A stretch of 64,000 bases of DNA from Lycorma delicatula (taxonomy: Eukaryota; Arthropoda; Insecta; Hemiptera; Fulgoridae): positions 148,360,049 to 148,424,048 of the forward strand of contig NC_134460.1 of the NCBI RefSeq assembly GCF_047948215.1. Direction: 5' to 3'. Made by a program: the position numbers and the translations under genes. Within the stretch, counting starts at the first letter, position 1. Each line of letters starts with the position of its first letter. Of the stretch, positions 39,201-45,200 are shown in pieces. The notes beneath the pieces were generated by a model. The model ran no database searches. It was not told where the DNA came from and was given only the letters and a program-made list of their open reading frames with translations.

Positions 39201-42200
39201 GAGGCATACAACAATAGGTTTAGCATATTTTTTGCCACTATTTTGGATTAGACGTTCAGAATTTGGTTCTACTTGTATCTGTTTTTCCATCTCATTGAGC
39301 TCTTTAAAATAAAACATCAAATGACCATTGATCCTATTTGAAAGTTTTGAGTTGCCCCTCCCGTCCACGCTCAAAATAAATTAGAGTGAAATATACATCC
39401 ACTGAAGTAGCCCCTTGGTATAAGGAAGAATGCCGCAAACCACATCTAGTTACCTCAATTATAAAAAAAGGTTAGAGGGGAGTGTAAGTTACTTTTCAGC
39501 CACCCAGTATATACAGGATTTTTATAAGATCATCAAAAGAATTTAGGGGATAGTCCCCACACCAAAATAAGGAAAAAAATTTCATCAACATATATCCAAA
39601 AATTTTGTTTACCAGCTATTCACAATTTTATATTTTTAATATAAAAATTTATTTCTCAGGTATGGTTGGGTAATTGTATTGAACTGAAATTTTGTAACTG
39701 ATAGGATAACTAGAAACTTACTTGTACAAAAATAATGAACCTCATCTCTCGATCAATTTCAAAATGGAGACCATGTAAATGTTTTAATTTTAATATCTTT
39801 GTAACTACTGGTTTATTTAAATGGTTATGTTAACAAAAAATATTGTTTTATGGCAAAGAAGATGACACCTTATTTATTCATTTTCATTGATAAATAACAA
39901 AGTTATGGCAAAAACTCTTCAAGTGAATAATTCCAGATTAAAAAACCACTTTCATTTAATCCTGAATAAAATTAATTAAGTTAACAAAATCTCAAGTGAA
40001 ATAATTTTATTCCTGTTATCATGTTTTTTCAGTATCACGTTTCTGTAAGTCACATATAAGCTGGTATTTAGGATGACCACTTATTTGTCTGTTTTTCAAC
40101 TGAAATGCTCAATGGTGAAAGATATTTACATTTCTTGATGGTTCATCTTCTACTTTTCTCTAAGATTTGCCACTAATCACACCAAAAAAAATGCTGGATA
40201 GGACCATTACAGATTATAAGTTTAAATTTATCTAGATGGGTTGGTCAAAGAGACCCAGTAGCACGGCCCACAAGGTTTCCTAATCTCAATCCTCTTTGAC
40301 TTTTTCTTATGGGGCCACTTAAAGACATTTGCATACAACACACCTGCGGTTACCATAGAAAAATTACTTACAAGAATTCTAAATAGGATTGAGAGGATTT
40401 GTCAGACACCTGGCATCTTTGAAAGAGTTTGATAGTCAATGAAAAAAACAGCTAGATGCATGTATTTTGAATAAGAGCCGGCACTTTAAACAGCTACTGT
40501 AGTTTCTTTTATTAATGTTTTATTATTTGATACAATAATTTATTGTTAAATAAATTTTAATTGAAAAAACAAAAGTTAGTTCAGCCAATGTTTGTTCACT
40601 GGACAAAAACATGTAATGCAAATTATTTTTCATTATTAATACTTTTTATTGTAATAATATTTTAATGATTTCAATAATATTTTATTGTAATATTTTCCAT
40701 ATTATTAAATTATTATAATTTTTTACATGATAACTGTAATAAAATTATTCCAGTTGAGATCGTGTTGCGTTACTTAATTTTATTCAGGAGGAAATGAAAA
40801 CTGGATTTATAATCTAGAGTGACTAATTTCAAGAGTTTTTGCCATAATTTTTTATTCTTTTAATCAGACATGAATAAATAAGGTGTCATTTTCTTTGTCA
40901 TAAAATGCTTAACATTTCTTGTAAGATAAAAGAATTTAAATAAACCAGCGGTTGTAAAAGATATTAATTAAAAAATTTACATGGCTGCGATTTAAAAATG
41001 GATAAAGAGATCAGGTTCATTATTTTTATGCAAGTAAACCTCTAGGTACCCTAGCAGTATAAGAGATACTGTTAGGCTTGATATTATAAACCATTCTTGA
41101 GAAATAAATTTTTATTTTAAGAATACAAAATGACAGAGGGCTGGTAAACTAAATGTTTCCAGCGTTTATATAGTGATATAAATTTTTTCTTTATTTTGAT
41201 GTGGGGGACCATCCTCCAAATTCTTGAAATAGTTTTTATAAACATGCTATATATATAGGGGTATCACGAAGTTCTCCCAGAACTTCGATCTCATAACCTA
41301 TTCTACATGTGAAAATAATGGAAAAAGTTAATATAAACACATAAAACATAAAAATGCTTCATTTGTGAGTTATGGCTACTGAAAGATATCACTTTGATTT
41401 CAGCTAACCTGGTAAAAATGAGGTCAAACTGAAATTTTTAGGAAGTTAATTAAGGGGTAAAATTAGTGATTTCTTACGGTTTTTGATCTGAAAATTGAAT
41501 AAAATAGGTCCCAGAACCACATCTGAAATAGTCTTTAAGAAATAAGTAAATTTGACAACCAATAAATTGGAGTAAAAACCCCGGTTTTTTATGTTTGACA
41601 TACCATAACTTTGTTAAATGGGTAATAAACAAATAAAACTTTTAAATAAAACTTGTAGAGAATTTAATTTTCTACAAAATAGTGTAAGATAAGTTGAATA
41701 AAACAAATAAAGGTTAGAAAAATTCAAATTCTATTTAGAAACAGTACACTACTACATTTGTCTGAAAGTAATTATTTAATGTAAACAAAAACCAAATCAT
41801 TTTTTGGTGAAGTGAAAAATCTATAAAAACAGAGTTTACTGTTAAAAAGTTAAAAAAACTGGAAATTACACAACTATTGTAAAAAAAATAAATAAATAAA
41901 AATTACTAGATAATCATTTTTTTATTAATGACAGAAATACAATAAATTATTTGAAAAAAATTATTATTTCAAAGTTGGCGATAAAATAACAGCTGATCAA
42001 CAATGCAAAATACTGTATTAGTGATTAAACCATTCTTTAAGGTATATTAAGTATATTGGATACTGTGATCTGTGCTGTTGTTAGCGAAGGATTTCTGTGA
42101 ATTTTAATTTGAATGTGATTAGTTGGACATTGAAGCAAAACCATACTTATTTACAACAGAGGATTATGCTGATATAGTAATCATTTTGGGTGTTTGTAAT

Positions 42201-45200
42201 GGTAGTGTTACAGCTGCTGCAGCAGAATATAAAATACATTTCATGAATGGCAGGATTCCAGATCCCGAAACAATTAGCATAACTTTTTACCATAACAACA
42301 ATTAGCATAACAGCCAGGAAACCCTATCACAAACATCAACACAAAAACATAACATCAGCAACCTTATCATAACATCTACACCCAGGAGATGGTCTGTTTC
42401 GCTTGGAGTTCTGCAACTGGTGGAATACAAATTTAAAAAAAAAAAAATTAAAAAAATGGTGGAAAAAAAAAATTAATTACAAAAAATGATTTCATTAATT
42501 AAAAGATCAATACTTCTGTGGAGTGAAGCAATTATAATGGTACTGAAACATTAACAAATGAATTGAAAAAAGAAAGTTTTATAATATTATCAAAAAAAAA
42601 CTAAGTTGGTGAATTATAATGAATAATCTGTGGTTCGTATATCATTCTATTAAGATTAGACAGATTTAAGAGTCAAGAGGCCTTGACATCTCAGTCAGTA
42701 GTTTAGTTTTTATGAATGCAACTATACTAAGAGGAAACACTTATGAGGACAAATTCTCAGGAAGTTAACACATCATCAATCCCTGCTTAGAATTTAGTGG
42801 CTCCAAAGACTACCGTAAGTATTATAAAGAAAAATGGAGCCACAGTGACCGCCCATTCAATTCCTGTAATTATGCAGGGATCAAGAAAGATGAGATAAAA
42901 TAAACACCTCATTCAAGGACTACATCAGACCAGGATTGTTTACCATTTTTTTTTTTTTTTTAAATAGACATTACTTAGTAAGACGTATCAAAGAAAAAAC
43001 TGTACATGAAGACTACAACATTTAAGAAACAAAAATATGAAGAAATAGATAATTAAGGATGCACACTGAAAAAATACTCTGGGATCAAAAGATTTGAGCA
43101 AAATCTAAACAAAATTTTAGACAACTGCTTAAAAAATACTCAATTATGAAAATTTCATATTTTGAAATGTATTAAGTTTTAACTTGAAATATTTTTATAA
43201 ATATAAAAAAAGTAAATTATGAAGCACCAAAATTAATTAAAATTACCTTGATAGCCTCCAGTAAGAAGGCTAACGTACTGTGTATGTTTTTGTAAAAATG
43301 ATGCCACTACCATATGCGTGTACTGATCATCATCTAAGTCACCACAACCAAGAAAACATAAATGTTCTCCACCGGCATTACTTCCAGCAGCTAAAGCCTG
43401 TCTTTGAGCAGATAATAAACCTTGAACTGCTGTTGAAAATGCAACTGGTTCTTGTAGCATCTATAAGCAAACAATGCAAAATAAAAACAACAAATGAGAA
43501 CTGGTTGATAATTATCACAAAAAATTAAACAAAATAAAATAATTTATTTTTAATGATATAATTATTTTTTTTTTTTGTAAAAAATGTTGAATTAAACTAG
43601 TTGCTTGCTGTAAAAATAAACACTTCACTTCATGCCAACAAAAACTGAAAAGATTAATTTAAGAAATTCTCATTGTTATTTATGACTTATTAACTAAAGA
43701 CATTTTTGTAGTGTAATTCAACTACATTTAGTTACAATTCTCAATTTGGCTAAATCTAGTACACAATTGAATAAAAAGTAAATATATAGAAAAAGGTTTG
43801 GGGATGATGGTTCAATTCTCTTTCAAAATCTGATTAGGCATTAATTACTATTAACCTTCCTCCAGTCTTATTAGTGAATATAGACTATTCTGGAGCCTTC
43901 TGTTCATTATGCATTTACTCTGGGTAACAACTTACACAGAGTTTCTCACCAGTTTCCAGAAACTGTTAACAAATTTCCCCTTCGAATATCAAACCTTTAA
44001 GAGGAAGCTTCCTCTTAAATCTTTGAGGCCATTCTTTCATGATCGGTTAAAGTTCCTGACTGTATCGGGAAAGTTTTGGCAGTCATTAGCCAGATAGAGG
44101 AAGTTAATTTCTGATTCCCAAAGATTGCGAAAAGTTGCACTAATTGTTTTGGTATCTGGAATCCTGCGATTCAGAAAACTTATTTTATATTCTACTGCAG
44201 AAGCTGTTGCATTACCATTTCAAACACCCAAAATAAATACCATATCAGCAAATTCCTATGTATTAAATAAATATGGCATTACTTCAACGGCCATTTTTTG
44301 TTTGAACTGATCACATTCAAACAAACATTCACAGAAAACTTAACTAATGACAACACAGTTCACAGTACCCAATATACTTAATGAACCTTATAGAATGATT
44401 TAAACACTATTTCAGTTTTGCTAATTGTTGATCAGGTGTTGTTATTTTATTGCCAACCTTGAAATAATAATTTTTCAAATAATTTATTATATTTCTGTCA
44501 TAAATAAAAAAAAATATTTTGTAAGTAATTTTTAAGTATTTACTTTTATTTTACAATTGTGTAATTTCCAATTTTTTTTTAATTTGTTAGCAGTTAACAG
44601 TAAATTTTGTTTTTACAGATTTTTCACATCACCAAAATTTTTCTAACTTTTCTTAGTTTTATTCAACTTATCTTACACCATTTTGTTCAGAATTAAATTC
44701 TCTATTAGTTTTGTTTAAAGGATTTATGAGTTTTTTGCCTATTTAACAAAGTTTTTGTAAGTCAAACATAAAAACCAGGGTTTTTACCCCAATTAATTTG
44801 TTTTCACCCCAGATTTCTCAAAAACTACTGCATTCTGGGACCTATCTTAATCAACTTTTCTGGTCAAAAACCATAAAAACAATGAAATTACTAATATGCT
44901 CCTTAATTAACATCCTAAAAAATGTCAGTATGACCTCATTTATCTGGGGTAACTTTAATCCAAGCAAAATCTTTCACTAGCCGTAACTTGTAAATGAAGC
45001 ATTTTAAGGACAAACATTTATATGAACTTTTTCCATTAATTTCACAAGTAGAATACATTATGAAAGTTCCAGGAGAACTTAGTGATACACTCTATGTATT
45101 TTTAAAATTTGCCTGGTGATGGTGGTATAAATCTCCGAAATCGCTGCAGTTAGGTGAGTGTTCTTCCTTTTTATTTGAACTTTGGTGGATTTCAATTCAT

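Follow-up and report, generated by a model that had tools for sequence, protein, structure and literature searches.

The window, by which we mean the whole 64,000-nucleotide stretch of Lycorma delicatula DNA analysed here, carries exons of the TBC1D23 gene on its minus strand. Nine exons of this gene were placed in the window, five of them with borders read from splice sites and the other four with approximate borders. The fourth of the nine, a 214-nt exon at 43247-43460 (minus strand) bordered by AG and GT, encodes the second half of the rhodanese-like domain and is the exon enclosed by the two transposon copies that are the subject of this analysis. The exon that precedes it (219 nt, 47071-47289, minus strand) encodes the first half of the same domain, and the translation of the two together matches TBC1D23 (PDB 6jl7_A, E 9e-44). 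Four of the five exons with splice-site borders match 6jl7_A. The fifth is the exon that follows the enclosed one (163 nt, 35658-35820, minus strand, splice-site borders read by eye), whose frame matched no Pfam family and which we take to belong to TBC1D23 from the continuity of the frame and its resemblance to the human sequence. The frames at 34119-34445 and 26722-26961 matched the family TBC1D23_C above its cut-off (40.1 and 60.6 bits, respectively), and the frame at 31067-31237 matched it with 15.3 bits, below the cut-off of 26.5. The last exon presumably lies at 24118-24237, where it was placed by resemblance to the human sequence; the Pfam search gave no TBC1D23 match for this frame.

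A preliminary description, made from the letters of the sequence, had called the enclosed exon 'exon 4', which holds as a count within the window only. An exon matching residues 5-79 of 6jl7_A was found in L034, in window coordinates at about 70.7-71.0 kb, and the first exon inside the window matches the same protein from residue 187. Because the residues between 79 and 187 are not covered by either, at least one further exon must exist, which makes the enclosed exon at least the sixth coding exon of the gene. The expectation that skipping of the 214-nt exon would shift the reading frame was borne out: when its neighbours are joined, 13 residues are read before a stop is reached, 14 codons into the next exon. 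Since further exons follow this premature stop, decay of the skipped mRNA would be likely. The donor site after the preceding exon (47065-47070) reads GTCTGT, unlike the usual consensus GTRAGT, and a donor as weak as this might influence skipping.

The enclosed exon is flanked by two oppositely oriented copies of a single transposon family. BLAST confirmed the coordinates that had been proposed for them, and the spacing from the exon, about 660 and 950 nt, was also correct. Arm 1 (41258-42287, plus strand) is the 5′ part of copy 1, a transposon probably of the Tc1/mariner superfamily (DUF4817), and lies in the intron downstream of the exon; its outer terminal inverted repeat occupies about 41261-41751 and the start of its transposase frame about 42123-42287. 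Arm 2 (44111-45092, minus strand) is the 5′ part of copy 2 and lies in the intron upstream of the exon; positions 44130-45092 pair with arm 1, and 44111-44129 match other genome copies. BLAST returned two long collinear inverted matches, not short scattered ones, of which one joins 41802-42287 with 44130-44637 (516 columns, 79.5% identity, E 6e-124) and the other joins 41251-41724 with 44636-45099 (484 columns, 77.3%, E 5e-100). Both were recovered again when the whole window was compared with itself. A global alignment of slightly wider spans gave 808 identities in 977 ungapped columns (82.7%), and the same 808 identities over the 1110 columns with gaps come close to the roughly 75% first judged by eye. 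A segment of arm 1 of about 77 nt (41725-41801) has no counterpart in arm 2.

Each of the window copies retains one end, with a single terminal repeat. The outer ends of both sit in TA-rich DNA and the inner ends are lost, so that a target-site duplication cannot be read at the locus. The loss of both inner ends had been pointed out before, and it is correct in that both copies are 5′ parts, but the homology does not simply stop at the ends first drawn: copy 1 resumes at 42371-42432 and copy 2 reaches about 44111. The additional piece of copy 1 (62 bp, plus strand) matches the element about 210 bp past the first block and is 93.5% identical to the genome copy L009. On the scale of the element, copy 1 can be aligned to position 1035 and then again from 1247 to 1308, and copy 2 to about 1052, the first loss of homology falling at nearly the same element position in both (about 1035 and 1052). 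A tandem repeat with a 15-bp unit (3.1 copies, 42269-42312) spans the inner break of copy 1. Within arm 1, the stretch 42123-42305 matched DUF4817 in Pfam with 16.2 bits, below the cut-off of 22.6, and no Pfam transposase match was obtained in arm 2; the window's own copies hold just the start of this frame.

The family was then traced in the host assembly (2,201,066,461 bases, 14 contigs) by a search with arm 1, in which the best 40 of 9145 first-look candidates were scored. At least 46 matches to arm 1, the window included, occur in the assembly, and among the matches listed the others are 74-84% identical to it. Arm 2 is missing among these, as is a third, nearly full-length copy that lies past the window end and upstream of the 70.7-kb exon (L035:1975-4092, in window coordinates about 75.97-78.09 kb), so the matches listed are an incomplete set. 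Twenty genome copies were examined, all chosen from the arm 1 hits and hence possibly leaning to arm 1-like members. Full elements of about 2.4 kb were found in L009, L013, L014, L015, L020 and L021, and L018 holds a shorter one that has both terminal repeats; the terminal inverted repeats of all these measure roughly 400-520 columns. A 3′ repeat was not found in three of the 20 copies (L010, L019 and L022), and in L011 the element is interrupted and runs off the end of its stretch, which indicates that partial copies are not unusual in the family. Two of five open transposase pieces from other copies matched Pfam: one open piece of L025 matched DUF4817 above the cut-off (28.0 bits, cut-off 22.6) and another matched DDE_3 below it (19.7 bits, cut-off 28.6). 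To judge by these domains, the family fits a DNA transposon of the Tc1/mariner superfamily (IS630-Tc1/mariner) with a transposase of the DUF4817 and DDE_3 type, in agreement with the Tc1/mariner-like character initially attributed to the window copies.

The claim that the arms can pair across the exon was sustained by both fold and energy calculations. The minimum-energy fold computed for the 3951-nt sense strand, which takes no account of transcription kinetics or proteins, joins the two arms by 789 bp, and its longest uninterrupted helices measure 31 and 30 bp. The predicted energy of the arm duplex was -899.5 kcal/mol, compared to -237.8 (sd 10.2) when arm 2 was replaced by 30 dinucleotide shuffles of itself; lying so far below the shuffles, it shows that the complementarity is not a matter of chance. 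Complementarity between the flanking introns reached 434 bits at the enclosed exon and 26-36 bits at seven other internal exons, in a comparison of eight exons where some borders are approximate and where the intron before the first tested exon was taken to extend to the 70.7-kb exon, though at least one exon lies between. Complementary copies are present in both introns beside the enclosed exon, as in a flanking inverted repeat.

Long inverted repeats are not rare in the host genome, on the evidence of a small sample: one of five random 10-kb stretches contained an inverted repeat of more than 400 columns (644 columns, with a loop of about 3.6 kb). Beside the arm pair, the window holds a second inverted repeat, in which 39508-40024 matches 40725-41255 over 538 columns, as well as shorter ones around an element that we call A. 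The next 30 kb past the window hold one, of 419 columns, which is the third family copy itself. Element A (about 37290-39511) has terminal repeats and frames that by eye resemble a DUF4817-type transposase, and element B (about 39508-41255) has inverted arms of about 520-530 bp. Elements A, B and copy 1 abut one another at TATATA junctions (37288-41255), and a piece of the family of element B (126 columns) lies about 100 bp beyond the third copy. A composite unit made of A, B and the arm pair was considered and found unsupported, as none of the 20 family loci was matched by A or by B at E 1e-10. No known structured RNA was matched within the window at Rfam gathering scores. Farther along, an open reverse transcriptase frame of 516 aa (56078-57628, minus strand; RVT_1, 145.8 bits) is adjoined by a broken mariner (57640-58351) with matches to HTH_48 (below cut-off) and Transposase_1.

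The origin of the pair was assessed by aligning the arms with 18 of the 20 genome copies, L027 and L028, which had shorter matches, being left out. Between the two arms, identity is 82.5%; the mean identity to the 18 copies is 82.2% for arm 1 and 81.2% for arm 2, and that of the copies among themselves is 82.0%. Because the arms are about as distant from each other as from the other copies, two separate old insertions, each later trimmed of its 3′ part, appear to fit best. Judged by the same identities, a recent duplication of one arm from the other is excluded. The tree is near-star, with tips of 0.12-0.20 and inner branches of 0.011 or less, and the arms are not sisters in it, although both fall within a weakly supported cluster with L009, L010 and L026 in a tree whose inner support is weak. 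The alternative, that duplication and inversion of one element around the exon produced the pair or that a single foldback-type unit arose at the locus, we regard as unlikely. The first inner break, nearly coincident in both copies, would suit such an event, but copy 1 has kept a 62-bp inner piece that is absent from copy 2, the spacer is a host exon with its splice sites, and the mean arm-arm identity is no higher than for copies on different chromosomes. The arms of a foldback should be each other's closest copies, yet in addition to the arms' separate places in the tree, arm 2 comes 10th of 19 in order of identity to arm 1, and arm 1 comes 5th of 19 in order of identity to arm 2. More in keeping with a joint origin is the sharing of rare letters, which is moderately in excess: at 19 columns the arms share a letter other than the commonest one, where the median of 189 other pairs is 9 and three of the 189 reach 19; with scaling for divergence, 11 of the 189 reach the arms' value. 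This excess is modest, and would be explained by a common subfamily or by a local duplication dating from about the time when the family spread, the only kind of duplication that the tree would miss. The preliminary description had offered two trimmed insertions and a single rearranged element as alternatives; identities, near-star tree and block positions favour the former, and the latter is unsupported.

We then asked how the arms compare, as pairing partners, with ordinary family members, using 15 of the 18 other copies (three shorter than 960 nt were omitted). Three of the 15 are better partners for arm 2 than arm 1 is, and 13 are better partners for arm 1 than arm 2 is, the latter partly because arm 2 is shorter than most copies. 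Wobble-compatible mismatches between the arms number 45 and A-C mismatches 29 (p 0.08), a wobble-compatible fraction of 0.61, the range with other copies being 0.45-0.63. Measured against the family copies, neither identity rank nor duplex energy nor mismatch type gave a clear sign of selection for pairing, and on balance the complementarity looks like that expected of two ordinary family members. It is extremely improbable, in our view, that the pairing has been selected and regulates TBC1D23 output through a circle or a decay-prone skipped mRNA. The enclosed exon is alone among the eight tested in having strong intron complementarity, its skipping shifts the frame, and the excess of rare letters might in principle also stem from selection for pairing; however, identity, energy and mismatch type are no better than in ordinary family pairs. 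We consider it probable, instead, that the arms are a passive inverted repeat from two old insertions, with back-splicing or skipping as a possible by-product. A transposon about 2.4 kb long, whose terminal inverted repeats measure roughly 400-500 bp, would have inserted twice and separately, in opposite orientation and once in each flanking intron, and both insertions would later have lost their 3′ parts. The arms could pair in the nascent transcript and, once paired, might sometimes favour back-splicing of the exon into a 214-nt circle or its skipping, either product being formed at a low level and having no selected function.

By analogy with known cases, back-splicing or skipping of the enclosed exon is plausible, and the chance that deep RNA data contain a detectable back-splice product may be put somewhat below even. 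Scarcely short of an even chance is that the inverted repeat has no RNA consequence, either because splicing removes the introns before the arms come together or because binding proteins separate them. Arm 1 is transcribed about 950 nt after the donor site of the exon, and the lack of any clear sign of selection on the pairing points the same way. In the portion of the honeybee study considered here, BLAST complementarity failed to distinguish circularized exons from controls, and that of the flanking introns largely overlapped control introns (PMC6347836); the fly paper, in the part used here, cites studies against a systematic role of such matches (PMC12404201). On the other hand, the predicted pairing of the arms is strong, and single worm and fly loci described in the sections we draw on depend on such matches, the worm ones down to 13 nt (PMC8330042, PMC12404201). 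At C. elegans zip-2, according to the same section, 7- and 13-nt matches between the flanking introns promote back-splicing and skipping alike (PMC8330042). Honeybee cofold energies did differ significantly from those of controls, but they overlapped and tracked GC content, so that these data, as far as that portion of the study goes, give little support for intron complementarity as a predictor of circles (PMC6347836). A stronger effect, in which the paired transposon halves serve, in neurons or some other tissue, as a structural switch and yield both a single-exon TBC1D23 circle and a frameshifted skipped mRNA that lowers protein, seems very unlikely; if true, it would be a DNA-transposon counterpart of inverted Alu pairs in a large-genome insect.

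Inverted copies of a DNA transposon around one conserved exon offer a clean and testable case, for which the other tested TBC1D23 exons, lacking such pairs, serve as internal controls. Should back-splicing or skipping prove true, old DNA transposons, and not just young repeats, would drive circular RNAs in a large-genome insect. Should neither product be formed, the strong pairing predicted over about 1 kb would be harmless.

All in all, the TBC1D23 locus is a further example of an arrangement already known, that of inverted repeats flanking an exon, and the RNA effect proposed for it would follow a known mechanism. Foldback-type elements carry long inverted arms around a spacer, and so does this locus; unlike in those elements, the spacer here is an exon of the host gene, and separate insertions are the best reading of the arms. 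The likeness to inverted repeat pairs that flank circularized exons, such as inverted Alu pairs, is that the introns on either side of an exon hold oppositely oriented copies of one family, which can pair across it, whereas the TBC1D23 pair derives from a DNA transposon and not from a SINE, its copies are old and about 82% alike, and its circle is hypothetical. With zip-2 of C. elegans and Glut1 of Drosophila, as treated in the sections considered here, the locus shares complementary stretches in both flanking introns; the matches at those two genes were tested by deletion, whereas the TBC1D23 arms are about 1 kb of transposon sequence with a predicted effect (PMC8330042, PMC12404201). In five mammals, by the portion of the study on which we rely, pairing repeats are mostly young (PMC8516420); in contrast, the pair that encloses the TBC1D23 exon is long but old.
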